A DNA stretch of 50,947 nucleotides from NCBI RefSeq assembly GCF_000257645.1, contig NZ_AJHJ01000035.1, positions 1 through 50,947 of the forward strand. The letters run 5' to 3'. The notes beneath the pieces are model-generated. The model was not told where the DNA came from. It saw nothing but the letters and a program-made list of their open reading frames with translations, and searched no databases. Below, one piece after another: positions 7,725 to 21,581 of the stretch. The stretch is from Serratia sp. M24T3 (lineage in GTDB: Bacteria; Pseudomonadota; Gammaproteobacteria; Enterobacterales; Enterobacteriaceae). Numbering within the stretch: position 1 is the stretch's first letter; the number at the start of each line of letters is the position of its first letter. The position numbers were made by a program, and so were the translations under genes.

Positions 7725-7861
7725 CGTTGTCGCCAATCCTGCCCATAGCCGAGGTATGCTAGGATGATTGCCGGATTTTAGTACAGTAAATACGTATAGA
7801 ATGAGCACATAGTCAGGCCAAATTGTGTTGGTAGAAGCAGATTGCAAGTGATGAGGTGAAA

Positions 7862-10800
7862 GTGACAAATCGAGTAAACGCACTACATGAGCAGCTGGCA
7901 AAGCGGATCTTAGTCCTGGATGGCGGCATGGGTACTATGATCCAAAGCTATCGTCTGGAAGAAGAGGACTACCGCGGCACACGTTTTGCTGACTGGGAAA
8001 GCGATCTCAAAGGCAATAATGACCTTCTGGTACTGACTAAACCAGAAGTGATCACCGCTATTCATTATGGTTATCTTGAAGCCGGTGCCGACATACTCGA
8101 AACCAACACCTTTAATGCCACGCCAATCGCCATGGCCGACTACCATATGGAATCACTGTCAGCCGAGATAAACTACGAAGCTGCGCGTCTGGCACGTATT
8201 TGTGCTGATGAATGGACCGCACGCACTCCAGACAAGCCGCGTTATGTCGCCGGGGTGTTAGGTCCGACCAACCGCACGGCCTCGATCTCACCGGACGTCA
8301 ATGATCCTTCGTTTCGCAATGTCTCTTTCGATCAGCTGGTGGAAGCTTACCGTGAATCGACCCGTGCATTGATTGAAGGCGGTGTTGATCTGATCATGGT
8401 GGAAACGATCTTCGACACCTTAAACGCCAAAGCTGCGACCTTTGCCGTGGAAACCGTGTTTGAAGAGATGGGCGTGCTGCTGCCGGTCATGATTTCCGGC
8501 ACCATCACCGACGCCTCCGGGCGTACGCTTTCAGGGCAGACCACAGAGGCTTTTTATAACTCGCTGCGCCACGTTAAACCACTGACCTTTGGCCTTAACT
8601 GTGCTTTGGGCCCTGACGAGCTGCGACAATACGTGGCCGAGCTGTCGCGTATCTCCGAATGCTACGTCACCGCGCACCCTAATGCCGGCTTGCCCAACGC
8701 TTTTGGTGAGTACGATCTCGAAGCCAAAGAAATGGCCGAGCATATCGGTGAGTGGGCGAGATCAGGATTTCTGAATATCGTTGGCGGCTGCTGTGGCACC
8801 ACGCCAGCACACATCGCGGCCATGGTTAAAGTGCTTGAAGGCGTGCCACCTCGCCAACTGCCAAAAATCCCGGTGGCTTGCCGCCTTGCCGGTCTAGAAC
8901 CTTTAACCATTGACGCACAGACGCTTTTCGTTAACGTCGGTGAACGCACCAACGTGACCGGCTCCGCGCGCTTCAAAAAATTAATCAAAGAAGAGAAGTA
9001 TCTCGAAGCACTGGCGGTTGCTCGTCAGCAGGTTGAAAGTGGCGCGCAAATTATTGATATCAACATGGACGAAGGCATGCTCGATGCCGAAGCCGCCATG
9101 GTGAAATTCCTGCATCTAATTGCCGGTGAGCCTGATATTGCCCGCGTGCCGATCATGATTGACTCTTCAAAATGGGACGTCATCGAAAAAGGCCTTAAAT
9201 GCATCCAGGGCAAAGGCATCGTTAACTCGATCTCCATGAAAGAAGGGGAAGAGGCTTTCCTCAAATACGCTCGCAAGGTTCGCCGCTACGGCGCCGCGAT
9301 GGTGGTGATGGCCTTCGACGAAGTAGGGCAGGCGGATACTCGTGCTCGTAAAATTGAAATCTGCCGCCGTGCTTACAAGTTATTGACCGAAGAGGTCGGA
9401 TTCCCACCGGAAGATATCATTTTCGACCCGAATATCTTTGCTGTGGCGACCGGTATCGAAGAGCATAACAACTACGCCGTCGACTTTATCGAGGCCTGTG
9501 CCGACATCAAAGCCGAGTTGCCACACGCGCTGATTTCTGGTGGCGTCTCCAACGTTTCCTTCTCGTTCCGTGGTAACGACCCGGTGCGCGAAGCAATTCA
9601 TGCCGTGTTCTTGTATCACGCGATTCGTAACGGCATGGATATGGGCATCGTTAACGCTGGTCAGCTGGCGATTTACGACGATTTAAGCACCGAACTACGT
9701 GACGCGGTTGAAGATGTGATTCTTAACCGGCGTGAGGACGGTACCGAGCGTTTGCTCGATTTGGCCGAGAAATATCGCGGTAGCAAAGACGATGGCGAAG
9801 CGAATAAACAACAGGCTGAATGGCGTGGTTGGGAAGTTAAAAAGCGTCTCGAATACTCATTGGTGAAAGGTATTACCGAATTTATCGAGCTGGATACCGA
9901 AGAAGCGCGTCAACTGGCAGCAAGACCTATCGAAGTGATCGAAGGGCCATTAATGGATGGCATGAATGTCGTTGGTGATTTGTTTGGTGAAGGAAAAATG
10001 TTCCTGCCGCAGGTGGTAAAATCTGCCCGCGTGATGAAGCAGGCGGTGGCGTATCTTCAGCCGTACATTGAGGCTAGCAAAGAGAAGGGTAAAACTAACG
10101 GTAAAATCTTGCTGGCAACAGTAAAAGGCGACGTTCACGACATCGGAAAAAATATCGTCGGAGTGGTTTTGCAGTGCAACAACTATGAAATCATCGACTT
10201 AGGCGTTATGGTCCCAACCGATAAAATTCTTAAAACCGCCATTGAAGAAAACGTCGATATTATCGGGCTTTCTGGACTGATCACGCCGTCTTTGGATGAA
10301 ATGGTCAATGTGGCGAAAGAGATGCAGCGTCGCGGTTTCACTATTCCACTGCTGATAGGCGGTGCAACTACCTCTAAAGCCCACACTGCGGTGAAAATCG
10401 AGCAGAACTATAAAGGTTCAACCACTTACGTGCAGAATGCTTCCCGTTCTGTTGGTGTAGTTTCCGCCTTGTTGTCCGATGAGCAGCGCGATGCGTTTAT
10501 CGAGAAAACACGCAAAGAGTACGATACGGTGCGTATCCAGCATGGGCGCAAGAAACCGCGTACTCCGCCGGTAAGCCTGGAAAAAGCCCGAGCCAATGCT
10601 AGCCAGCTTGATTGGGAGAGCTACACGCCGCCGGTAGCAAGGCATTTAGGCATTCATCAGGTTGAGGCCAGCATTGAAACATTGCGTCGGTACATTGACT
10701 GGACGCCATTCTTTATGACCTGGTCGCTGGCAGGAAAATATCCACGTATTCTTGAAGATGAAGTGGTCGGCGAAGAGGCCAAGCGCTTGTTCCAGGATGC

Positions 10801-11545
10801 CAACGACTTACTGGATAAGCTTTCACGCGACAAATCGCTTAATCCGCGCGGCGTATTTGGTTTATTCCCGGCTAATCGAGTTGATGATGATATCGAAATT
10901 TATCGCGACGAAAGCCGAGAAGAAATGCTGGTTGTTAGCCACCATCTGCGCCAGCAAACCGAGAAAACGGATTTCGCCAATTATTGCCTGGCTGATTTCG
11001 TCGCACCGAAGTCCAGCGGCAAAGCTGATTACATGGGAGCCTTTGCCGTAACCGGTGGTTTGGAAGAGGATGCCTTGGCCGAGGCCTATGACAAGAAGCA
11101 CGATGATTACAATAAAATCATGATTAAAGCGCTGTCTGACCGTTTGGCTGAAGGTTTTGCGGAATATTTGCATGAGCAGGTGCGCAAGCTTCACTGGGGC
11201 TTTGCAGCAGATGAAAACCTCAGTAATGAAGAATTAATTCGTGAAAACTATCAGGGAATACGCCCGGCACCCGGTTATCCGGCCTGCCCGGAGCACACTG
11301 AGAAAGGACAAATCTGGAAGCTGTTGGATGTCGAAACCCACACCGGTATGCAGTTGACTGAGTCATTCGCCATGTGGCCTGGTGCTGCCGTTTCTGGATG
11401 GTATTTCAGTCATCCCGAAAGCAAATACTTCGCCGTGGCGCAAATCCAGCGCGATCAGGTTGAAGACTACGCAGCGCGTAAAGGTATGCCAATAACTGAA
11501 GTTGAGCGCTGGCTGGCACCTAATCTTGGTTATGATGCTGATTAA
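7862..11545 (+). CDS. metH: Cobalamin-dependent methionine synthase
   Basis: MetH transfers the methyl group of 5-methyltetrahydrofolate to homocysteine through enzyme-bound cobalamin. The four modules appear in order. The homocysteine/zinc domain starts with [13 protein letters not shown] and carries zinc ligands in LNCALGPDE and GGCCGTTP. The pterin domain has [13 protein letters not shown] and [17 protein letters not shown]. The B12 domain has [14 protein letters not shown] with the cobalt-ligating histidine, and [10 protein letters not shown]. The reactivation domain holds [15 protein letters not shown] and [16 protein letters not shown]. The GTG at 7862 has GAGG five bases upstream and gives 1227 residues, the E. 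coli length. A GTG two codons earlier (7856) overlaps that ribosome site. The gene is monocistronic and divergent from iclR. Confidence 0.96.
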
Positions 11546-11722
11546 CCTAATTATGTGACTTACCCATTTTGTGAAGCGCTAAGCACTTCTTCAATTTGGT
11601 ATGAGACTGAGTAGTGCTTCAATTTGGGAGGGGATAAATATTTTCTCGCGAACGGGAGAGGGTTAGGGAGGGGAGCTGCCATCTTGGGCTCCCCAGCAAA
11701 TCCTTATCTATTTCGTATTGCT

Positions 11723-12433
11723 TCACCCTACCTCAACATCAATCTGCAAGGCATCGTAGCGCCAGTATTCCAGATCGCAGTCAATGATCCGATCCTGTTG
11801 ATCGCGGTTGATTCGCGTGATCACTAACGCCGGACTTCCCGACGTAACTTTCAGTGCGTTAGAAGCTTCTGTGGGTAATCGTGTCGGCACCATATCAAAA
11901 CGCACACGGCCATATTTTATCCCATAGCGAGACAAGTACAGATCGGTCAAGGATCGGGTGAGATCGTCGTTAATGATATCTGGAAAGAACTGTGGATTTA
12001 GATAATGTTCAACGTACAGCACAGCCCGGCCATCAATGTAGCGCAGTCGACGGATGCAGTAGATGTCACTTTGCGGTGGCAAATTTAACTTCTGGCACAG
12101 ACTGTCACTGCCTTTAATCTGGCTGGCGTCGATAAGCTCGGTTTGTGCGATTCGCCCCTGCTCTTTTGCCATCGCGTGGAAATGACTGCGCTGAAGCGGA
12201 TTATAAAGAATACGTGGCGGCGATATAAACCAGCCGCGGCGCACTTCGCGATAGATAAGCCCCTGTGCCTCAAGCTGGCTTAGCGCCTCTCTCAGAGTAA
12301 TACGGGTAGTGGAAAACTGCTCGCTCAGCGTTCTTTCCGAGGGCAAGCGTCCCTCGGCTGAATAAAGTCCGGCAGTTATTTTTTCACTCAATGTTTGGCA
12401 AATAGTTGCAACAGTGGTCTGGGATTCACTCAT
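11723..12433 (-). CDS. GntR/UTRA-family repressor, PhnR-like
   Basis: A 236-residue transcription factor of the GntR/HutC type. The N-terminal winged helix-turn-helix (about residues 8-70) contains the typical GRLPSERTLSEQFSTTRITLREALSQLEAQGLIYR. The UTRA effector domain follows, with IYCIRRLRYIDGRAVLYVEHYLNP and the closing ALVITRINRDQQDRIIDCDLEYWRYDAL. The ATG at 12433 is preferred over the TTG one codon upstream. It is divergent from a 2-aminoethylphosphonate-type ABC operon, the arrangement of phnR and phnSTUV in Salmonella, so it most likely represses that operon and senses its substrate or a breakdown product. The ligand is not known from sequence. Confidence 0.8.
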   Translation of the reverse strand: MSESQTTVATICQTLSEKITAGLYSAEGRLPSERTLSEQFSTTRITLREALSQLEAQGLIYREVRRGWFISPPRILYNPLQRSHFHAMAKEQGRIAQTELIDASQIKGSDSLCQKLNLPPQSDIYCIRRLRYIDGRAVLYVEHYLNPQFFPDIINDDLTRSLTDLYLSRYGIKYGRVRFDMVPTRLPTEASNALKVTSGSPALVITRINRDQQDRIIDCDLEYWRYDALQIDVEVG

Positions 12434-12452
12434 CAATATTCAGCCTCATTTC

Positions 12453-12468
12453 AGTGCATTTTTGCACC
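12453..12468. promoter_or_regulatory. Candidate operator of the GntR/UTRA repressor
   Basis: The inverted repeat GTGCA-TTTT-TGCAC lies 20 bases upstream of the repressor start in the divergent promoter region. A second GTGCAC palindrome lies at 12496-12501. Their position suits a GntR-type operator; no consensus was checked. Confidence 0.3.
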
Positions 12469-12541
12469 ACTATGGCAATTAAAGGTTGAAGATTTGTGCA
12501 CTTGTTAACAGCTATTCGCTTAAAAATGCTGCTTTATCACG

Positions 12542-12574
12542 CTGTCATATAATTATCACAAACGATCGTTAGAT
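12542..12574 (+). promoter_or_regulatory. Pho box and -10 element of the organophosphorus operon
   Basis: CTGTCAT-ATAA-TTATCAC (12542-12559) matches the PhoB box, two 7-mers CTGTCAT/CTGTCAY spaced by four bases: the first repeat is perfect and the second matches 5/7. A -10-like TTAGAT (12569-12574) follows nine bases later, the spacing of PhoB-dependent promoters in which the box replaces the -35. The first gene starts 61 bases on. This points to induction under phosphate starvation. Confidence 0.65.
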
Positions 12575-12635
12575 TGGCTTGGATCTTGCTGGACTAGACC
12601 AGCACTCACACACACTATCATCTGGAGCATCAGTT

Positions 12636-13694
12636 ATGAAACAGTTGTTCGCTTCTGTGTTAACCACCGCGCTCGTTATGACAACGACTACCGCGTTTGC
12701 TGCCGAATCTCTGGCCAGTCTTGAAAAAGCCGCTAAAGCTGAAGGCACCGTGAACAGCGTTGGCATGCCTGATTCGTGGGCAAACTGGAAAGATACCTGG
12801 AATGATTTGAATACTAAATACGGCATCAAGCATAGCGATACTGACATGAGTTCCGCGCAGGAAATTGCTAAATTTCTGGCAGAAAAAAGCAACGCCAGTG
12901 CAGATATCGGTGATGTGGGGGCGGCATTTGGTCCAATAGCGGTGAAAGAGGGCGTAACTCTGCCTTATAAACCAAGTACCTGGGACCAGGTGCCTGCCTG
13001 GGCCAAAGACAAGGACGGTAACTGGGTGCTGGCTTATACTGGTACTATCGCCTTTATCATTGATAAATCTCAGGTTAAAGACGAACCACACAGCTGGGCT
13101 GACCTGATGAAAGGCAAATATAAAGTGACTATCGGCGACGTGAGTACTGCGGCGCAGGCAGCTAATGGCGTTCTTGCGGCCACTTATGCCATGGGGGGTA
13201 ACGAGAAAAACCTTAAGCCGGGTCTGGATTACTTTGCCAAGCTGGCGAAGGCAGGGCGTTTGAGCCTCACCGACCCGGTTATTGCCTCGCTGGAAAAAGG
13301 CGAAGTTCAGGTTGGCGTAGTCTGGGACTTCAACGGTCTTAACTATCGTGACCAGATTGATAAAACTCGTTTTGACGTGGTGATCCCATCAGACGGCAGT
13401 ATCACTTCGGGTTATTCCACCATCATTAACAAATACGGTAAGCATCCAAACGCGGCAAAATGGGCTCGTGAATATATCTTCTCCGATGCCGGCCAAATCA
13501 ATCTGGCCCGTGGTTATGCGCGTCCAATCCGTGCCGAACACTTGACGTTGCCGGATGACGTAAAAGCCAAGCTGTTGCCTAACAGTGAATACGCCAACGC
13601 GCATCCGATTGCTGATCCAGAAGCCTGGAACAAGAGCGCCAAAACGCTTCCAAGGCTTTGGCAAGAGCAAGTCATGATCAATCTCCAACAATAA
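12636..13694 (+). CDS. Periplasmic binding protein of a 2-AEP/organophosphate-type ABC transporter
   Basis: The ATG at 12636 lies eight bases after GGAG and opens a typical signal peptide (MKQLFASVLTTALVMTTTTAFAAE), with cleavage expected after A22 or A23. The mature part is a class II (Fe3+/thiamine/2-aminoethylphosphonate-like) solute-binding protein. Visible elements are IGDVGAAFGPIAVKEG, SWADLMKGKYKVTIGDVSTAAQ, VGVVWDFNGLNYRDQ and the C-terminal ANAHPIADPEAW. Total length is 352 residues. It is the first gene after the Pho box; two ERIC repeats separate it from the enzymes and permeases, which may let it be made in excess over them. The ligand could be a phosphonate or a phosphate ester; PhnS and AfuA-type proteins share this fold. 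Confidence 0.8.
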   Translation: MKQLFASVLTTALVMTTTTAFAAESLASLEKAAKAEGTVNSVGMPDSWANWKDTWNDLNTKYGIKHSDTDMSSAQEIAKFLAEKSNASADIGDVGAAFGPIAVKEGVTLPYKPSTWDQVPAWAKDKDGNWVLAYTGTIAFIIDKSQVKDEPHSWADLMKGKYKVTIGDVSTAAQAANGVLAATYAMGGNEKNLKPGLDYFAKLAKAGRLSLTDPVIASLEKGEVQVGVVWDFNGLNYRDQIDKTRFDVVIPSDGSITSGYSTIINKYGKHPNAAKWAREYIFSDAGQINLARGYARPIRAEHLTLPDDVKAKLLPNSEYANAHPIADPEAWNKSAKTLPRLWQEQVMINLQQ

Positions 13695-13699
13695 ATCCT

Positions 13700-13827
13700 C
13701 GTTATCTTTCGTGCCTCAGGTGCGTTGGCAGCGCGGGCTTACCCCAGTCACTTACTTGTGTAAGCTCCCGGGGATTACGCCTGCTTGCCGCCTTCCCGAG
13801 ACGCGAAATCTTTAGAGGATTGATTTT
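13700..13827. repeat. ERIC element, copy 1
   Basis: A 128-bp palindromic element. Its core has CTTACCCCAGTCACTTACTT followed by GTGTAAGCTCCCGGGGATTA, which are the two halves targeted by the classic ERIC primers, and then CCTGCTTGCCGCCTTCC. It is intergenic, as ERIC copies usually are, inside a transcribed operon just after the binding-protein gene. Confidence 0.9.
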
Positions 13828-13830
13828 AAT

Positions 13831-13958
13831 CGTTATCTTTCGTGCCTCAGGCGCGTTGGCAGAGTGGGCTTACCCCAGTCATTGACTTGTGTAAGCTCTC
13901 GGGGATTACGCCTGCTTGCCGCCTTCCCGAGGCGCGAAATCTTTAGAGGATTGATTTT
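13831..13958. repeat. ERIC element, copy 2 (tandem)
   Basis: A second 128-bp copy in the same orientation starts three bases after copy 1 (period 131 bp) and differs at only a handful of positions. Together the pair fills most of the gap between the binding-protein and hydrolase genes. From 13987 to 14028 there is a further inverted repeat, TTTCATCG / CGATGAAA. Confidence 0.9.
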
Positions 13959-14085
13959 CTCTCCTTTGTAAAAAGAATGAGGGATCTTTCATCGGGAAAA
14001 GAAATGAATCGTTCGTTCATCGATGAAAAATTTAAAGCTCTTTCCATGCATTGAATTTCATGAACTTTTATCAGGGTATTACGTA

Positions 14086-14883
14086 ATGAAGAGCATTCTG
14101 GTGGTACTGGACGGCCTGAATTATCAGGTTGCCCGCGAAGCAATGGGATATTTACAGGCACAGTGCGCTGCGGGACGCGGGCGCTTGTATCAACTGGAAT
14201 GCGAACTACCGTCACTGTCACGCCCGCTGTATGAATGCATTCTTACCGGCGTGACGCCCGTGCTGAGCGGTATCGTACATAATCATGTAGACCGCTTATC
14301 GACTGGGCGCAGTATTTTCCATTATGCCCGCGACGCCGGTTTAACGACTGCGGCGGCGGCCTACCATTGGGTTAGTGAGCTTTATAACCGCACGCCGTTT
14401 ACTCCGGCACGCGATCGCCATACCGACGATAAGAGTCTGGCGATTCAGCACGGTCATTTCTATTACGACGATACCTATCCCGATTCACATCTGTTTGATG
14501 ACGCCGAAAGCCTGCGTTTAAAACATGATCCAGACTTTTTGCTAATTCATCCGATGAATATTGACGATACGGGCCATAAGTTTGGTCTCGATTCGATGCA
14601 GTATCGCAACAAGGCGCGTGTCGCTGACGGTATTTTGTCGCACTATCTCGGCGCCTGGCTCGAGGCTGGATATCAGGTGATCGTCACCGCCGATCACGGT
14701 ATGAACAACGATCGCAGCCACGGCGGGATTCTGCCAGAAGAGCGTCAGGTCCCGATGTTTGTGTTTGGTAACGCCTTCAGTTTCAAAGACGCCGCGCCGC
14801 TGCAAACTGAACTCTGTGGCACCGTCTGTGAGTTGCTTAATGTCAGCCATGACAAGCCACACTGCGCGGATTTACTGGCCTGA
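14086..14883 (+). CDS. Compact alkaline-phosphatase-superfamily hydrolase (NPP/phosphonoacetate hydrolase type)
   Basis: The ATG at 14086, nine bases after AGGG, gives 265 residues and no signal peptide, so the enzyme should be cytoplasmic. All metal-site elements of nucleotide pyrophosphatase/phosphodiesterases appear in order: D9 in VVLDGLN, a nucleophile position at S45 (36 residues on, the spacing in Xanthomonas NPP; S43 is the alternative) within LPSLSRPLYECILTGVTP, D160/H164 in DDTGHKFG, D203-H204 in TADHGM, and H212 in RSHGG. Serine instead of the usual threonine, and a length well below the roughly 400 residues of NPP or PhnA, mark a minimal version. It probably hydrolyses the imported phosphodiester, phosphonate or phosphomonoester. 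The substrate is unknown. Confidence 0.75.
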   Translation: MKSILVVLDGLNYQVAREAMGYLQAQCAAGRGRLYQLECELPSLSRPLYECILTGVTPVLSGIVHNHVDRLSTGRSIFHYARDAGLTTAAAAYHWVSELYNRTPFTPARDRHTDDKSLAIQHGHFYYDDTYPDSHLFDDAESLRLKHDPDFLLIHPMNIDDTGHKFGLDSMQYRNKARVADGILSHYLGAWLEAGYQVIVTADHGMNNDRSHGGILPEERQVPMFVFGNAFSFKDAAPLQTELCGTVCELLNVSHDKPHCADLLA

Positions 14884-14911
14884 TTCGGGTCGAGAAGATG
14901 GGGAATAACGG

Positions 14912-15751
14912 ATGAAAGCTAAGTGGCTTGCTCTGCTTTTTGTGCTGCCTTTCGCGGTGTTCTTTATCGCTTTTCAGCTTGCGCCGCTGGTCTGGGTCGC
15001 TGTAAGCAGTTTTTATAGCGATACCTATGAAGCCTGGGGATTCGGCAATTACAGCGATATTCTGACCTCGCCGTTCTATCTGCAAGCGATGAAGTTCTCA
15101 CTGGATATCTCTTTCTGGTCAAGCATTTATGGTCTGCTGATCGCATTGGTTGGTAGTTACTCACTTCGCCAGCTGGGCCCGACCAAGCTGCATGATTTTG
15201 TGATGTCATTTACCAATATGACCAGCAATTTTGCTGGAGTGCCGCTGGCCTTTGCCTTTGTGATTCTGCTCGGCCTAAACGGTACCCTGACGTTAATCCT
15301 GAGAAAATATGGTCTGATGAGTAGCTTCAATCTGTACTCCAGAGATGGCTTGATCGTGCTTTATACCTATTTTCAGATCCCATTGGGCGTTCTGCTGCTT
15401 TACCCGGCGTTTGACGGGCTGCGAGAAGACTGGAAAGAGTCGGCGGCGCTGCTCGGCGCAGGCAAATGGCGCTTTTGGCGCTACATCGGATTACCGGTGT
15501 TGGCCCCGGCTTTAATGGGCACCTTTGTTATCTTGCTGGCTAACGCGCTGGGGGCTTATGCCACAGTCTACGCCTTGACCACTGGCAACTTTAACGTCGT
15601 GCCTGTGCGAATCGCCGCGCTGGTCTCGGGCGATATTTCCCTCGATCCGAACATGGGTAGCGCGCTGGCGATATTGCTGGTGCTGTTAATGGCGGTCATC
15701 ACGCTGGTGCATCAATGGCTGTTGCGCAGGAGCTATGTCAATGTTCGCTAA
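14912..15751 (+). CDS. ABC transporter permease 1
   Basis: A 279-residue inner-membrane protein with about six hydrophobic segments, the first at residues 4-32. The EAA coupling loop is visible in WKESAALLGAGKWRFWRYIGLPVLAPAL, where it contacts the ATPase. It belongs to the PhnU/PotB-like permeases (BPD_transp_1). It starts 28 bases after the hydrolase stop, and permease 2 follows 38 bases downstream. With permease 2 it should form the heterodimeric channel for the ligand of the binding protein. Confidence 0.85.
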   Translation: MKAKWLALLFVLPFAVFFIAFQLAPLVWVAVSSFYSDTYEAWGFGNYSDILTSPFYLQAMKFSLDISFWSSIYGLLIALVGSYSLRQLGPTKLHDFVMSFTNMTSNFAGVPLAFAFVILLGLNGTLTLILRKYGLMSSFNLYSRDGLIVLYTYFQIPLGVLLLYPAFDGLREDWKESAALLGAGKWRFWRYIGLPVLAPALMGTFVILLANALGAYATVYALTTGNFNVVPVRIAALVSGDISLDPNMGSALAILLVLLMAVITLVHQWLLRRSYVNVR

Positions 15752-15789
15752 GGCTAATTTTTTGACTATCACTGGCCTGGAGGAAAAAT

Positions 15790-16575
15790 ATGTCGCGCGC
15801 TGAAAGTATTTATCACCGCCTGATTGTCTGGGTGCTGTTTATTGTTCTGATGTTACCGCTAGCCGCAACGCTGATTTATGCGCTGGTGGAGGACTGGGGA
15901 GCAACCATTCTGCCGAGCGGCTTCACCATGAAATGGCTTGTCTCGCTATGGAGCGATCCGCGTTTTCTGGTGGCATTGGGGCATTCACTGTTGATCTGTC
16001 TGGGTACGCTGGTGTTCTCGCTGGTACTGATCCTGCCACTTATGTTTGTGATTGCTTACTATTTCCCAAGGCTAGATGCACTGATGAACGTGCTGATCCT
16101 GTTGCCGTTTGCTGTACCGCCAGTGGTCTCTTCGGTGGGCCTGATGCAGCTCTACTCTGCGCCACCGTTTGAACTGACCGGCACGCCCTGGATTTTGATT
16201 GGCTGTTATTTCACTATCGCGCTGCCGTTTATCTATCGGGCCATATCCAACAATATTCAGGCCATTAATATGCGTGACCTAATGGACGCCGCCCATTTGC
16301 TCGGTGCCAGCACCTGGAAAGCCGCGTTGCTGGTGATTTTGCCAAATTTGCGCAAGGGCGCGACTATCGCCGTGCTACTTTCGTTCTCGTTTTTAATTGG
16401 TGAGTTTGTGTTCGCTAACCTGCTGGTCGGCAGCCGCTATGAAACATTGCAGGTCTATCTCTACAATATGCGCAATGGCAGTGGCCATTTCACCAGCGCA
16501 TTGGTTATCTCCTATTTCGTGGTTGTCCTGGCATTTACCTGGGTGGCTAACGCAATGAATAAAGGGAAGCGCTAA
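15790..16575 (+). CDS. ABC transporter permease 2
   Basis: A 261-residue inner-membrane protein of the PhnV/PotC-like permease type with about six hydrophobic segments. The EAA loop is LMDAAHLLGASTWKAALLVILPNLRKG. GGAGG lies upstream of the ATG at 15790. The ATPase gene follows after two bases, so the two are translationally close. It is the partner of permease 1. Confidence 0.85.
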   Translation: MSRAESIYHRLIVWVLFIVLMLPLAATLIYALVEDWGATILPSGFTMKWLVSLWSDPRFLVALGHSLLICLGTLVFSLVLILPLMFVIAYYFPRLDALMNVLILLPFAVPPVVSSVGLMQLYSAPPFELTGTPWILIGCYFTIALPFIYRAISNNIQAINMRDLMDAAHLLGASTWKAALLVILPNLRKGATIAVLLSFSFLIGEFVFANLLVGSRYETLQVYLYNMRNGSGHFTSALVISYFVVVLAFTWVANAMNKGKR

Positions 16576-16577
16576 TC

Positions 16578-17570
16578 ATGTCCTATTTGCAAGTCACCCA
16601 ACTCAACAAACATTACGGCCAGACGCAGATTTTCAATAATATTGATTTTAGCGCCAAAGAGGGCGAGTTCGTTACGCTGCTTGGTCCGAGCGGCTGCGGA
16701 AAGTCTACACTGCTGCGCTGTCTCGCGGGGCTGACTTCGGTCGACAGCGGGCAAATTTTGATTCAGGGTCAGGACATTGTTCCACTTACGCCGCAAAAAC
16801 GCGGGATTGGCATGGTGTTTCAGAGCTACGCGCTGTTTCCCAACATGACGGTTGAGGGGAACGTAGCTTTTGGCCTGAAAATGCAACGCATTTCTGCCAG
16901 TGAAACGACCCGCCGCGTGGCTGAAGTGTTAGCGCTGGTTGAGCTAAACGAGTTTGCCCGCCGCTATCCGCATCAGCTTTCCGGTGGGCAGTGTCAGCGT
17001 GTGGCGCTGGCCCGTTCGCTGGTCACACAGCCGCGCCTGCTGTTACTCGATGAGCCTTTATCAGCGCTCGACGCCCGTATTCGTAAACATTTACGCGAAC
17101 AAATCCGCCGTATTCAACGCGAAATGAACCTGACCGCCATCTTCGTTACTCACGATCAGGAAGAGGCGCTGACCATGTCGGATCGTATTGTTTTAATGAA
17201 TAAAGGACAAATCGTACAGAATGGCGACGCCGAAACATTGTATACTGCACCGGTCAATGCTTTCGCAGCCGGTTTTATTGGCAGCTATAACCTGCTGACC
17301 GCCGAACAGGCACATACCTTGACCGGGCAAAGTTATCCCTCCCAGGTCGCCATCAGACCGGAGTCGATTGCGCTTTGTGCGCCAAATCAGGGAATTCCCG
17401 CCCGTATCCTGAATCACAGCCTGCTAGGTAACGTCGTTCGTTATCGTGTTATGGCTCACAATGTCGAGTTATCGGTGGATGTTTTAAACCGCTCCGTTGA
17501 GTCTCTGTATGCCGATGGCACCGATATTGGTCTACAGTTAGATCTTGATACCTTGAGAGAAGTTGCATGA
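16578..17570 (+). CDS. ABC transporter ATP-binding protein
   Basis: A 330-residue ATPase that powers the importer at the cytoplasmic face. Walker A is GPSGCGKST (36-44), the Q-loop lies in GMVFQSYALFPNMTV, the signature is LSGGQCQRVALARSL, Walker B is LLLLDEPLSALD and the H-loop VTHDQEEAL. A TOBE-like C-terminal domain (from about residue 240) contains VAIRPESIAL. This is the CUT1/PotA/PhnT layout. The signature has C where most relatives have Q or R. The last four bases (ATGA) are the start of the HAD gene. Confidence 0.88.
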   Translation: MSYLQVTQLNKHYGQTQIFNNIDFSAKEGEFVTLLGPSGCGKSTLLRCLAGLTSVDSGQILIQGQDIVPLTPQKRGIGMVFQSYALFPNMTVEGNVAFGLKMQRISASETTRRVAEVLALVELNEFARRYPHQLSGGQCQRVALARSLVTQPRLLLLDEPLSALDARIRKHLREQIRRIQREMNLTAIFVTHDQEEALTMSDRIVLMNKGQIVQNGDAETLYTAPVNAFAAGFIGSYNLLTAEQAHTLTGQSYPSQVAIRPESIALCAPNQGIPARILNHSLLGNVVRYRVMAHNVELSVDVLNRSVESLYADGTDIGLQLDLDTLREVA

Positions 17571-18223
17571 ATCTGGCGCTATTTGATCTTGATGAAACTC
17601 TGATCCATGGTGATTGTTCCAGCCTGTGGTCAGCTTTTATGGTCAAGCAGGGCTGGGTTAGCGATCCTGACGATTTCCTGCAACAAGACGCCGAAATGAT
17701 GCGCCTGTATGCCGTGGGTCAAATGGACATGACGGAATACATGAACTGGACGCTAACTCCGCTTAAAGGTCGCAGCGAAGATGATGTGGCCGCGATGGTT
17801 GAGCGGTTTGTTGAGGAAGTGATTGCCGGAAGGATTTACGCCGATGCGCGAAAATGCCTGGCCGAGCATCAGGCGAAAGGCGATCGAACGATTGTAATTT
17901 CTGCTTCTGGTGAACATCTGGTTGCTCCAATTGCTAAATATCTGGGAATTGACGAAACGCTGGCTATCGGAGTCGAGACTCGTGAAGGTCTTTTTACCGG
18001 CTTTACTCAAGGCGTACTGACCTTTCGTGAAGGAAAGGTGACGCGGCTGATGACCCTTCTCGAACAGGACGATAGCCTGCTTGCCAATGCCAGTTTTTAT
18101 TCGGACTCGCACAACGATTTGCCGCTGCTGGCTAAAGTGGGCAAACCCTGTGCCATTAATCCGGATGCCATCCTGCTCCAACACGCCAGGCAGGCAGGAT
18201 GGTCTATACACGCCTGGCGCTAA
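17567..18223 (+). CDS. HAD-IB family phosphatase
   Basis: A 218-residue cytoplasmic HAD hydrolase of subfamily IB (SerB-like). Motif I is D7-L-D9-E-T, motif II ISASG (S112/S114), motif III probably K157, and motif IV SDSHNDLPLL (D180, D184). The cap lies between motifs I and II (about residues 15-90), as in phosphoserine phosphatase. It overlaps the ATPase gene by ATGA, so the two are translationally coupled, and yjbB follows 15 bases later. In this operon it may remove Pi from the monoester left by the NPP-like hydrolase. The substrate is inference. Confidence 0.8.
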   Translation: MNLALFDLDETLIHGDCSSLWSAFMVKQGWVSDPDDFLQQDAEMMRLYAVGQMDMTEYMNWTLTPLKGRSEDDVAAMVERFVEEVIAGRIYADARKCLAEHQAKGDRTIVISASGEHLVAPIAKYLGIDETLAIGVETREGLFTGFTQGVLTFREGKVTRLMTLLEQDDSLLANASFYSDSHNDLPLLAKVGKPCAINPDAILLQHARQAGWSIHAWR

Positions 18224-18238
18224 AGGAGTTCTTGTTTA

Positions 18239-19894
18239 GTGTTAACTCTTCTTCATTTGCTTTCAGCGGTTTCATTACTCGTATGGGGTACGCACATTGT
18301 GCGTACAGGGATCATGCGCGTGTTTGGTGCCAATTTGCGCCGCGTCCTCAGTGGTAGTGTAGAAAAAAAACCGCTGGCGTTTGTTTCGGGTATCGGCGTG
18401 ACCGCGCTGGTACAAAGCAGCAACGCCACTGCATTACTGGTCACTTCCTTTGTGGCTCAGGGACTGGTGGCACTTTCGCCGGCGCTGGTGATTATTCTCG
18501 GTGCAGACGTCGGGACAGCGCTGATGGCGCGTGTGCTGACCTTCGATCTTTCCTGGCTTTCCCCGCTGCTGATTTTCGTCGGTGTGTCGTTCTTCCTGAG
18601 TCGGAAACAAACGCGCGCCGGTCAAATGGGCCGTGTAGGGATCGGTCTTGGGCTAATCTTGCTGGCGCTGGAGCTGATTGTGGCTGCCGCGACGCCAATT
18701 ACTCAGGCCTCCGGGGTCAAAGTACTGTTCTCGTCGTTGACCGGCGATACGATTCTTGATGCGCTGACCGGAGCAGTTTTTGCGATCATCAGTTACTCAA
18801 GCCTTGCCGCGGTGCTGCTGACCGCCACGCTGGCCGCAACCGGTGTTATCTCGCTAAAAGTTTCACTCTGTCTGGTTATCGGAGCCAATCTCGGTAGCGG
18901 TATTCTGGCAATGATCAATGCCAGTAAACAAAATGCCGCCGGACGCCGGGTGGCGTTAGGTAGTTTGCTGTTCAAGCTGATCGGCTGTGTCATTGTGTTG
19001 CCGTTTATCGGGCCGCTCACCGGGCTACTGGCGAAAATCGGCATTCCCGACGAAGAACTGGTGATCTATTTCCACGTATTTTACAACCTGATCCGCTGTC
19101 TGGCGCTGGTGCCAACGGCCGGAATGATGGCCAGAATCTGTGAGCTGTGGATTGCCGATGTGCCCGAGGATGACCCGCGTCTTCGTCCGCGTCACCTGGA
19201 CGTCAGCGCCATCGATACTCCTTCACTGGCCCTTGCCAATGCGGCGCGTGAAACTTTGCGAATGGGCGATGTGGTTGAACATATGCTTATTCTTCAGCAT
19301 GAAGTCATGCATGGAAAAATCACTAATGATCGCGAGGTTCGCCGGCTTGATGACGACGTAGACGTGCTATACACCGCCATCAAACTGTATTTGGCTCAGA
19401 TTCACAAAGAAGATTTAGGCGAGGATGATTCCCGTCGCTGGGCCGAAATTATCGAGATGGCGCTAAACCTGGAGCAGGCTGGAGATATCATCGAGCGTAT
19501 GACTGGCGATATTGCCGCTAAATCGCACGACGCCCGCCGCGCATTCTCTGCGGAAGGTCTATCGGAGCTTGATAGCCTGCATGAGAAGCTGGTGGATAAC
19601 CTACGTCTGAGTCTCTCTGTTTTCCTGTCCAGCGATATGACCAGCGCTAAGCGTTTACGCCGCTCAAAGCACCGTTTTCGCCTGCTCGACCGCCGATATG
19701 CCCATGCCCACGTTGATAGGCTGCATCAGCATAACGTTCAAAGTATTGAAACCAGCTCGCTGCACCTTGGCCTGCTTGGTGACATGAAACGCCTCAACTC
19801 GTTGTTCTGCGCGGTGGCCTATAACGTGCTCGATAAAGACGAGAAAGAAGATGAACGCGAAGATCTCGACGATCTACCTGGGCTGGCAAAATAA
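18239..19894 (+). CDS. yjbB: Na+/phosphate cotransporter-family protein YjbB (phosphate exporter)
   Basis: A 551-residue protein. The N-terminal half is a NptA/NaPi-II-type membrane domain with the two QSSNAT- and SYSSLA-type inverted repeats (ALVQSSNATALLVTSF, AIISYSSLAAVLLTATL). The C-terminal half, from about residue 320, is a PhoU-like helical domain. Sequence and length follow E. coli YjbB (543), for which overproduction was reported to lower intracellular polyphosphate through Pi export. The start is GTG at 18239 with GGAG ten bases upstream, and the 15-base gap to the HAD gene puts it in the operon. Here it would vent surplus Pi released by the upstream hydrolases. A hairpin terminator follows. 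Confidence 0.92.
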   Translation: MLTLLHLLSAVSLLVWGTHIVRTGIMRVFGANLRRVLSGSVEKKPLAFVSGIGVTALVQSSNATALLVTSFVAQGLVALSPALVIILGADVGTALMARVLTFDLSWLSPLLIFVGVSFFLSRKQTRAGQMGRVGIGLGLILLALELIVAAATPITQASGVKVLFSSLTGDTILDALTGAVFAIISYSSLAAVLLTATLAATGVISLKVSLCLVIGANLGSGILAMINASKQNAAGRRVALGSLLFKLIGCVIVLPFIGPLTGLLAKIGIPDEELVIYFHVFYNLIRCLALVPTAGMMARICELWIADVPEDDPRLRPRHLDVSAIDTPSLALANAARETLRMGDVVEHMLILQHEVMHGKITNDREVRRLDDDVDVLYTAIKLYLAQIHKEDLGEDDSRRWAEIIEMALNLEQAGDIIERMTGDIAAKSHDARRAFSAEGLSELDSLHEKLVDNLRLSLSVFLSSDMTSAKRLRRSKHRFRLLDRRYAHAHVDRLHQHNVQSIETSSLHLGLLGDMKRLNSLFCAVAYNVLDKDEKEDEREDLDDLPGLAK

Positions 19895-19909
19895 GCTTCT
19901 GGCCGCGTA

Positions 19910-19952
19910 AAAACAAAAAGGGTCACGATATTCTCGTGACCCTTTTTTCATT
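19910..19952. terminator. Bidirectional terminator, copy 1 (downstream of yjbB and of the toxin gene)
   Basis: A 9-bp stem GGGTCACGA / TCGTGACCC flanked by A5G and CT6 works in both directions. The 43 bases 19910-19952 recur without a change at 20589-20631. The right end overlaps the last codons of the toxin gene. Confidence 0.9.
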
Positions 19953-20256
19953 CAAACAGTTCGCTATGAGTGCCTAAATTGATAAATGTTAGTAAGTTCT
20001 GTTTTTCATCAACCCGGTAAATAAGCAAAAAGTCACCGCCAATATGACACTCCTTTGCATTATCCCAATCGCCCCCCAGTAGATAATGATCGAGGAATTC
20101 TGCGGGTAATGCCGAGCCAATGAAAAGGAGCTTCATGACCTCTGTCATATTATTCATATTTCGCCTGCCCGCTCTGTTATAGCGTTCCCAGGCTTTGGCA
20201 AAGGTACGGGTATATTCAACTCTTCTTGGAAGTTTACTTCTCTTGTTTTCCTTCAT
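19948..20256 (-). CDS. YafQ/RelE-family mRNA interferase toxin
   Basis: A 102-residue small basic toxin of the RelE/ParE superfamily, closest in motif pattern to YafQ. The catalytic set of YafQ (H50, H63, D67, H87, F91) has counterparts H57 in LDHYLLGG, H71 and D75 in ECHIGGDF, H97 in GTHSELF and F101; F76 replaces the YafQ tryptophan W68. It should cleave mRNA on the ribosome and be neutralised by the upstream-encoded partner, whose gene it overlaps by 23 bases. The whole unit sits between two identical terminators, which suggests it was inserted. Confidence 0.85.
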   Translation of the reverse strand: MKENKRSKLPRRVEYTRTFAKAWERYNRAGRRNMNNMTEVMKLLFIGSALPAEFLDHYLLGGDWDNAKECHIGGDFLLIYRVDEKQNLLTFINLGTHSELFE

Positions 20257-20515
20257 CGCTCAATCCTTTGATCATCATCTCTACTGATTCGTAGCGATTT
20301 TCTGCGTTCAACTCCATTTGACGCGCTTCGGCCAAGGCCTGTTTGGTAGTGGCTGACGGGCGTTGCTTGACTTCAAAAGGCAGACCCTTGCTTTGCACTA
20401 CTTGTTCCAGAAAAATGCGGATTGCGCTACTCACTGTTAAACCACATTCGTTTAACACGTGCATTGCCTCATTTTTTAAATCTTCTGAGATTCTTGTCTT
20501 GATGCTGGTTTGCAT
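20234..20515 (-). CDS. RelB/DinJ-family antitoxin
   Basis: A 93-residue antitoxin. The N-terminal 45 residues (SIKTRISEDLKNEAMHVLNECGLTVSSAIRIFLEQVV) form the ribbon-helix-helix domain of RelB/DinJ proteins. The C-terminal half is charged and should wrap the toxin. AGGAG lies about eight bases before the ATG. A perfect palindrome 15 bases upstream is the likely operator for autorepression. It is first in the two-gene operon and overlaps the toxin gene. Confidence 0.85.
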   Translation of the reverse strand: MQTSIKTRISEDLKNEAMHVLNECGLTVSSAIRIFLEQVVQSKGLPFEVKQRPSATTKQALAEARQMELNAENRYESVEMMIKGLSDEGKQEK

Positions 20516-20530
20516 AATTATGACTCCTTT

Positions 20531-20551
20531 TGTGGGTACATTGTACCCACA
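20531..20551 (-). promoter_or_regulatory. Toxin-antitoxin operator palindrome
   Basis: TGTGGGTACA-T-TGTACCCACA is a perfect inverted repeat with 10-bp arms around one central base, just upstream of the antitoxin start. Ribbon-helix-helix antitoxins bind such palindromes to repress their own operon. Confidence 0.7.
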
Positions 20552-20588
20552 GATTATTATTTGAGCAATGCTGGCTTAATATGAAATT

Positions 20589-20631
20589 AAAACAAAAAGG
20601 GTCACGATATTCTCGTGACCCTTTTTTCATT
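20589..20631. terminator. Bidirectional terminator, copy 2 (downstream of panS)
   Basis: This is an exact 43-base copy of 19910-19952, including the 9-bp GGGTCACGA stem and T6 tract. It ends 14 bases from the panS stop and would terminate panS on the minus strand. Confidence 0.9.
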
Positions 20632-20645
20632 GCTCAAACGCGAGA

Positions 20646-21581
20646 TTATTTATGCGCGTTCTTTTCATCATTTTTCACCGGACGACCCGACCAGTAACCA
20701 GCAAGCAGGGAGCCTGAAAGGTTGTGCCACACGGAGAATATTGCACCCGGCAATGCGGCCAAAGGGGAGAAGTACAGTTTGCCCAGAGTCGCGGCCAAGC
20801 CGGAGTTCTGCATTCCGACTTCAAGCGCGATGGTGCGACAGGTCGTTTCATCGAAGCCAAACAACTTGCCACCCCAATAGCCGCTGAGCAGGCCGATGGC
20901 GTTGTGCATGATAACCGCGATGACCACTACCAGACCCACGGAACCAATCAGACTTTGGCTACCGGCAATCACCGCACTGATGATGGCCAGAATGCACACC
21001 ATGGAAAATAGCGGCAGAACAGGCTCGATACGTTTGACGACTTTGGTAAACAGGTGATGAACAATCAGGCCGGCCAGGATCGGCACCACAACAATCTGCA
21101 GGATACTGAGCAGCATGCCTTCCACGTCGACCTTGATATGAGTGTCAACATACAAGCGAGTCAGCAACGGCGTGGCGAATACGCCAACCAACGTTGAAAC
21201 GGAAGAGATAGTCACGGACAGCGCCACGTCGCCTTTGGCTAGATAAATCATCACGTTGGATGCAGTTCCGCTGGCCACGCTGCCAACCAGAATCATCCCG
21301 GCAGCCAGATCGTCAGGCATGTGGAACAGTTTGGCCAGTAACCACGCGGCTAGCGGCATCACCAAATAATGCAAGAACGTGGCAGCTGCGACTGGCGCAG
21401 GGCGGGAAAGTACGCGTTTGAAATCGCCAAATTCCAGCGTTACGCCCATCGCAAACATAATCAGCATCAGCAGGGTGCTGACGTGTGGGCCGATAGGAGT
21501 GAATGTCGTCGGTGTATAATAGGCGGCAACCGCCAGTAAAACTGCCCATAATGGAAACAGGCGTGTGATTTTAGCTAACAT
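20646..21581 (-). CDS. panS: BASS-family transporter, PanS-like (ketopantoate/pantoate/pantothenate)
   Basis: A 311-residue inner-membrane protein with about nine to ten hydrophobic segments. Bile-acid:sodium-symporter motifs include [43 protein letters not shown] and the late [15 protein letters not shown]. Length and pattern agree with the PanS group, shown in Salmonella to take up pantothenate precursors. AGAGGG precedes the ATG by about nine bases. It stands alone between the toxin-antitoxin pair and lysC. Family assignment is firm; the substrate is inferred. Confidence 0.7.

Follow-up and report, generated by a model that had tools for sequence, protein, structure and literature searches.

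Introduction

The agrocinopine operon acc of Agrobacterium mediates the import of an intact phosphodiester, which is then processed by a diesterase and a phosphatase, and it is controlled by a specific repressor. The ugpBAECQ operon of Escherichia coli is induced by starvation for inorganic phosphate (Pi) and combines an ATP-binding cassette (ABC) transporter for glycerophosphocholine with a cytosolic diesterase (PMC5438359). Here we describe an operon of Serratia sp. M24T3 that is an uncharacterised variant of this known ugp/acc-type strategy. It is located in a window of 50,947 nt (the whole stretch of DNA analysed), which is contig 35 of the 5.25 Mb draft genome G000 (113 contigs). A good Pho box precedes six core genes, which encode a periplasmic binding protein, an NPP-like hydrolase, two permeases, an ATPase and a HAD-IB phosphatase; this operon is real and nearly as a sequence-only reading had first described it.

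Like ugpBAECQ, the module is a probable Pi-starvation operon that joins an ABC importer with a putative cytosolic diesterase; it differs in having an NPP fold instead of the GDPD-type UgpQ. Moreover, its binding protein belongs to another family, and the ugp operon is not known to contain a HAD phosphatase or a GntR regulator. The acc operon is distinguished from the module by an Opp-type importer, the GDPD-like AccF and a phosphatase of a different family. With the importers of 2-aminoethylphosphonate (2AEP), namely PhnSTUV/PhnR of Salmonella and AepXVW of Pseudomonas, the module shares the ABC class, the PhnR regulator family and probable PhoB control; however, its transporter parts score below the PhnSTUV cut-offs, and two hydrolases replace phnWX. 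Passages of PMC8316502 and PMC9311074 deal with AepXVW, AepR and phnWX, but not with the gene set of the module.

We propose that the operon encodes a phosphate-starvation, substrate-gated module for the import and hydrolysis of an organophosphorus ester, similar to ugp/UgpQ, and consider this function moderately likely. At low Pi, PhoB would act at the Pho box to switch on the promoter. An operator just downstream of the transcription start would be occupied by a PhnR-like GntR repressor until the substrate, or something formed in its breakdown, displaces it. Together, binding protein and ABC transporter would bring an intact small organophosphorus ester into the cytoplasm; the likeliest cargo would be a phosphodiester or phosphonate ester of the lipid head-group type, for example glycerophospho- or glycerophosphono-ethanolamine or -choline. 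The NPP-like enzyme would split the diester and the HAD-IB enzyme would take the phosphate off the monoester, releasing Pi. In lineages lacking the HAD gene, the monoester would be handled by other means. The downstream YjbB would be a neighbour inherited from metH-yjbB synteny, with a possible but not defining role in Pi overflow. This scheme builds on the observed gene set and order, conserved sites, co-occurrence and conserved catalytic residues; from these we infer the order of reactions, the class of substrate and the mode of repression.

Results

The module is conserved as a unit

The operon is flanked by metH (7856-11545) on one side and panS (20646-21581, minus strand) on the other. 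Between them lie a divergent GntR/UTRA regulator gene (11723-12433, minus strand) and, on the plus strand, the genes of the binding protein (12636-13694), the NPP-like hydrolase (14086-14883), permease 1 (14912-15751) and permease 2 (15790-16575; both PF00528), the ATPase (16578-17570), the HAD-IB phosphatase (17567-18223) and yjbB (18239-19894), followed by a RelB/RelE pair on the minus strand. The ATPase and HAD genes overlap by ATGA, and 15 nt separate the HAD stop codon from yjbB. The starts of the open reading frames, the gene order, the overlap, the gap, the Pho box and the -10 hexamer agree with the sequence-only reading, which had missed the divergent PhnR-like GntR gene and its predicted operator, made no mention of two 129-nt repeats, and had no view of PhnJ on another contig. 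The closest named relatives, by NPP identity among the matches listed, are Rouxiella badensis (94%) and R. silvae (93%).

Among 295 genomes belonging to the GTDB order, 72 have NPP and 67 the binding protein, and every one of these 67 also has NPP; NPP without binding protein occurs in G069, G097, G110, G118 and G176. Gene neighbourhoods were compared at 123 loci, consisting of 80 named loci (the best of a longer list, mostly Pseudomonas), 40 loci from other genomes of the order (fetched out of 71 further NPP-positive ones) and three plasmids. L126 and L051 are the same place, as are L129 and L046, which leaves 121 distinct loci. The NPP gene is accompanied by both permeases and the ATPase at 119 of the 123 loci. 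The HAD gene follows the ATPase gene in 104 of these 119 complete loci (102 of 117 without the two duplicates) and in five of six further complete loci. A GntR regulator adjoins the module in 103 of the 123 loci. Lack of co-occurrence elsewhere had been set beforehand as a refutation test; with NPP in all 67 binding-protein genomes and HAD in 104 of 119 loci, co-occurrence is very strong, and a chance neighbourhood of enzymes and transporter is ruled out by these counts. NPP and HAD also diverge in parallel (r = 0.87, 595 pairs from 35 loci; 0.79-0.91 for other pairs of module proteins), although relatedness alone would produce part of r.

Promoter and regulation

The Pho box (CTGTCATATAATTATCAC, 12542-12559, plus strand) has two mismatches to CTGTCATAWAWCTGTCAY and is the only site of the window with at most three mismatches, where shuffles predict 0.13. 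The -10-like hexamer TAGATT (12570-12575, plus strand), read from the sequence, begins 10 nt past the box and is not among the sites of a generic sigma-70 promoter scan. Conservation was assessed in the regions upstream of 123 orthologous binding-protein genes; this set differs from the 123 loci and includes the duplicates L126 and L129. A box with at most four mismatches on either strand is present in 107 of the 123 regions, compared to 1.95% of 615 shuffles. If only the plus strand and a distance of 35-130 nt before the start codon are considered, the numbers are 80 of 123 regions and 0.16% of 1230 shuffles. The operon has a Pho box at its predicted promoter, as expected of a Pho regulon member, and the earlier view of one unit under a Pho box is supported by its conservation.

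A 12-nt palindrome (TGGACTAGACCA, 12590-12601, plus strand; consensus TGGTCTAGACCA), 14 nt beyond the -10-like hexamer, is a conserved site and the predicted operator of the GntR regulator. Of the 110 regions that have a divergent gntR, 103 contain a site with at most two mismatches to the consensus, compared to none of the 13 regions lacking gntR and 0.98% of shuffles; for L220-L223, L227 and L228, the gntR state was taken over from a separate survey of loci. Because the presence of the operator tracks that of gntR, site and regulator are linked. In the window, the position just past the predicted -10 suggests repression. Given the Pho box and the divergent GntR gene with its operator at this place, control is probably double, by PhoB and, via GntR, by the substrate. 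In Pseudomonas, the operator lies nearer to gntR and more than 320 nt before the binding-protein gene; the mode of regulation may therefore differ there. The regulator itself (UTRA 128.5 bits, GntR 62.6 bits) narrowly misses membership in the PhnR family TIGR03337, with 283.2 bits versus a cut-off of 296.75.

Transporter and relation to phosphonate pathways

The binding protein (SBP_bac_6, PF13343, 102.1 bits) has a signal-peptide-like start, as judged by eye, and is very close to the solved chain 5t1p (E 1.1e-153), presumably from a Campylobacter organism. The transporter had been named PhnSTUV-type. Its likeness to that ABC class stands, whereas family membership does not: the scores and curated cut-offs are 55.2/395.3 for PhnS, 289/499.15 for PhnT, 29.2/283.45 for PhnU and 88.2/358.7 for PhnV. 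Since all ABC parts remain under these cut-offs, the name expresses a loose likeness. The ATPase (PF00005, TOBE_2) is nearest to PhnT2 among NCBIfam models (382.5 versus 457.7).

The match to PhnT2 and the closeness of the regulator to PhnR would fit an importer of 2AEP or another phosphonate whose C-P (carbon-phosphorus) bond is cut by a C-P lyase encoded elsewhere, with NPP and HAD as accessory enzymes. The C-P lyase protein PhnJ is indeed encoded on another contig (C10) of the window's genome, and PhnD3 of Pseudomonas is termed a putative phosphonate binding protein in PMC5082522, and in this genome a phosphonate substrate is possible. We nevertheless consider this explanation unlikely. With the 2AEP-binding models, the binding protein reaches no more than 69 of 310 bits and 55 of 395, and it is NPP that consistently accompanies the transporter. 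Furthermore, of the 72 NPP-bearing genomes, 35 contain PhnX, 17 PhnJ and four both, while 24 contain neither and yet all have the binding protein; the module is therefore independent of these two C-P cleaving enzymes. PhnZ and PhnA had no match in these 24 genomes, in searches whose positive controls were likewise unmatched. In the window's 113-contig draft genome, neither phnW nor phnX exceeds the family cut-offs (best 109.6/360.8 and 44.6/220), so that their absence, noted for the window before, is upheld genome-wide.

YjbB is a syntenic neighbour

YjbB consists of a NaPi domain and a PhoU-like tail, as had been stated; it matches TIGR01013 above cut-off (409.2 versus 306.15), and the tail matches PF01895. 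The sequence-only reading regarded it as part of the pathway that prevents Pi overload; it would then be an integral overflow valve that has co-evolved with the other genes. The short spacing, the common strand and the lack of a listed terminator-like site between had and yjbB are in line with this role, as is the position of yjbB after the module in Lonsdalea (L056), L127 and L128, where metH is not in the stretch fetched. However, metH and yjbB are less than 1 kb apart (64-824 nt) in 24 of 43 comparable genomes of the family, which leaves no room for the operon; in the other 19, the distance is 1.1-75 kb. It amounts to 6.3-6.7 kb in the window, G228 and G276, which all carry the operon. This comparison used 49 of 55 genomes with a yjbB match, and in 43 of these the two genes share a contig and a strand; the fragmentary G314 and G316 as well as G334, G362, G365 and G381, which have no metH match, were dropped, and of the two yjbB copies of G305 the one at 490021 was used. 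These distances indicate that the operon sits within an older metH-yjbB interval.

In addition, yjbB adjoins the module or a remnant in just 25 of 123 loci, all enteric. L125 (in G097, from the window's family; reversed, about 9183-12018) keeps the old synteny npp-yjbB-panS after the loss of transporter, regulator and HAD, and G097 has no binding-protein match in its genome. YjbB is therefore better explained as a syntenic neighbour than as a conserved member of the module, and the valve proposed earlier is improbable. In Rouxiella and Rahnella, yjbB is probably co-transcribed with the operon, and this may be useful to the cell.

The two hydrolases

The NPP-like enzyme matches PF01663 with 59.4 bits (cut-off 23), has the NPP fold and conserves metal ligands, nucleophile and Asn; the VIA-align rows do not discriminate among NPP subfamilies. 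The HAD-IB phosphatase matches TIGR01490 with 162.8 bits (cut-off 98.3) and contains DLDET at residues 7-11 as well as DSHND. Both enzymes have kept their catalytic motifs and have no signal peptide apparent by eye; cleavage should therefore come after import. The earlier idea that the compound enters intact and is then hydrolysed in the cytoplasm by two enzymes working in sequence is supported.

Two further candidates were rejected. The HAD enzyme scores below the histidinol-phosphatase family NF052360 (207.5 versus 280), and two Pseudomonas genomes hold a separate member of that family (348.5 and 349.2) besides the operon HAD (220.6 and 219.5), so that it is not the housekeeping histidinol phosphatase. 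As for viral contigs as a source of NPP, none of eight pattern matches was confirmed.

The best fold matches of the NPP-like enzyme are NPPs, the closest being Xac NPP and ENPP5. One could hence assume that the cargo is a nucleotide, dinucleotide or sugar nucleotide and that the enzyme acts as a pyrophosphatase. This fold is, however, common to ENPP6 and ENPP7, whose substrates are choline lipids, and the families of regulator and ATPase suggest phosphonate-like ligands; we consider a nucleotide cargo improbable. It is very improbable that the NPP-like enzyme cleaves C-P bonds in the manner of phosphonoacetate hydrolase: PhnA (1ei6) is among the fold matches and TIGR02335 matches weakly, but the score is 21.8 versus 407.55 bits and the length 265 versus 408 positions, the best fold matches are NPPs, the nucleophile position holds Ser, where PhnA presumably has Thr, and a subsequent phosphatase would have no purpose.

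Other gene contexts and distribution

The enzyme goes with importers of another type as well, since npp-had pairs precede Opp-type ABC sets in L145 and L219 (SBP_bac_5, 191 and 186 bits) and npp alone precedes such a set in L132 (197.9 bits). Two other families of the phylum, f69 and f73, have NPP at the end of Opp-type operons (L210, L216) or 1.8 kb behind one (L214); in Shinella, an SBP_bac_5 gene is found immediately 5' of NPP. In L211, L212, L215 and L224-L226, an ABC ATPase of unspecified type is encoded 1.7-3.6 kb upstream of NPP. Labrenzia sp. THAF191a (L177:5301-8840) has the order LysR-tmpA-tmpB-NPP, with an NPP relative of 34% identity. TmpA (577.5, cut-off 400) and TmpB (351.8, cut-off 300) are enzymes of the pathway for 2-trimethylaminoethylphosphonate, the phosphonate analogue of phosphocholine; this order suggests that NPP frees the head group from an ester. 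The common thread of these contexts is an importer with a cytoplasmic NPP and, once, a head-group phosphonate pathway.

In the NPP tree, the enteric, Pseudomonas and two f9 rows form one set (support 99/99) apart from the vibrio-like rows. In the HAD tree, the five enteric rows group within a set that also contains Pseudomonas rows (100/99). This grouping makes it probable that the enteric operon was acquired horizontally, either out of a Pseudomonas-like source or in common with one. Transfer is also suggested by Citrobacter sp. JGM124 (L053:7980-14125), which carries the whole module and the regulator at a different chromosomal site, in a 20.8 kb stretch without metH or yjbB. An Enterococcus faecium plasmid (L122:6902-11485) contains a five-gene module without HAD (NPP identity 44%), and Enterococcus accounts for 179 of the 198 plasmid records that match NPP, among which this plasmid was the one analysed. 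Near this module, a gene on the opposite strand encodes a PHP-domain protein (NF005597, 304.8 versus 303; HisJ family 75.3, under the cut-off of 90.2), which, from this single case, is a possible substitute phosphatase. Across species genomes, at least 577 candidate NPP stretches were confirmed.

Tentatively, and with less confidence than for the function of the window operon, we suggest that these systems represent a widespread third route to organic phosphorus. Intact phospho- or phosphonodiesters of lipid head groups would be imported, cut in the cytoplasm by a compact NPP with a Ser nucleophile and passed to a dedicated HAD, or to TmpAB for the phosphonate analogue. The route would extend to Enterococcus, Pseudomonas, Vibrio and Campylobacter (the latter presumably, in view of the solved homologue), mostly under dual PhoB/GntR control in gammaproteobacteria.

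Earlier observations and points against the proposal

From locus numbers and gene order, we take PA3249-PA3255 to be the module of L123 and Cj0727-Cj0733 to be the counterpart of the window operon, including the individual gene identities in cj0727-cj0733. In Pseudomonas aeruginosa PAO1, PA3250 is found in the exoproteome during Pi starvation (PMC4899797), PA3249 binds the amrZ promoter in an electrophoretic mobility shift assay, with a motif given (PMC8041468), and PA3255 is cited as a histidinol-phosphatase homologue (PMC13318431). PhnD3 is more abundant in the exoproteomes of Pi-depleted P. fluorescens SBW25 and P. putida BIRD-1; in BIRD-1 without phoBR, PhnD3 is lower in the exoproteome, and the GntR gene 3890 and the ATPase gene 3895 are silenced (PMC5082522). 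By numbering alone, the GntR gene PPUBIRD1_3890, the binding-protein gene 3891 and the ATPase gene 3895 fit the module; the PhnD3 locus differs by its description as encoding a putative phosphonate binding protein, and the terms nucleotide pyrophosphatase and type I phosphodiesterase are absent from the main text of PMC5082522. In Campylobacter jejuni, whose locus is presumably linked to the window by 5t1p, genes 0750-0754 of strain 81-176 are upregulated in chicks along with pst genes (PMC3749233), and cj0727-cj0732 are described as an operon without assigned function that is upregulated in biofilms like pst genes (PMC7176700).

The statement that no pathway with this gene set had been described was thus overstated: presumably the same set is on record as a Campylobacter operon (PMC7176700), its binding protein has been named PhnD3 in pseudomonads, and ugpBAECQ follows the same strategy. 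Because presumed orthologues have been noticed before, the module is a variant of a known strategy. From the first interpretation, the single unit, import followed by hydrolysis, and co-occurrence have held up; the membership of YjbB and the lack of a described set have not. A function of the gene set was not found in titles and abstract openings, a coverage that leaves out most subscription journals. In public records, parts of the module go under the name "alkaline phosphatase family protein" or that of an unspecific ABC transporter. If the substrate were known, many annotations could be corrected, and the phosphorus cycle of soil, sea and gut would gain a pathway; in a gut pathogen, the module appears to rise with Pi transporter genes, according to the sources above. 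The small gene set, the solved homologue of the binding protein and the predicted sites for both regulators make the proposal directly testable.

Several observations weigh against the proposed function. HAD is missing from 15 of the 119 complete loci, namely those of eight Serratia, two Dickeya, Lonsdalea, L127 and L128 of the window's family, G256 and Enterococcus, and from L220 among the six further loci. The Pho box is absent from most f3 genome regions (2.2-2.5 Mb), several vibrio-like ones and Enterococcus, and PhnD3 is listed as unaffected by phoBR in whole cells of BIRD-1 (PMC5082522). The closeness of the regulator to PhnR points towards phosphonates. NPP fold and residues cannot tell a diesterase from a monoesterase or a C-P hydrolase. 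The predicted structure of the binding protein is poor (pLDDT 51.8) and gives no information on its pocket. The NPP relatives of L133, L209, L213, L217 and L218 have no adjoining importer of the kinds sought, and no substrate, activity or phenotype was found for the gene set in the sources consulted.

Additional features of the locus

A terminator-like hairpin is located 3' of yjbB (19915-19947); the scan lists it on the minus strand, and the plus-strand stem likewise ends in a T run. A RelB/DinJ-RelE-type toxin-antitoxin pair (window 19910-20631) lies between identical 43-nt direct repeats (19910-19952 and 20589-20631), each of which contains the hairpin of the yjbB/panS junction. The corresponding stretch examined in R. 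badensis and R. silvae (L042, L043) has a single hairpin and no RelB/RelE pair.

The gap of 391 nt between the binding-protein and NPP genes holds two 129-nt direct repeats (13699-13827 and 13830-13958) that are 95% identical. A 91-nt part matches unannotated E. coli DNA with 83.7% identity (five records listed), and an Rfam search over 11400-20300 gave no match. We assume that the repeats (13699-13958) are ERIC-like; as RNA, they might reduce the expression of the downstream genes relative to that of the binding protein.

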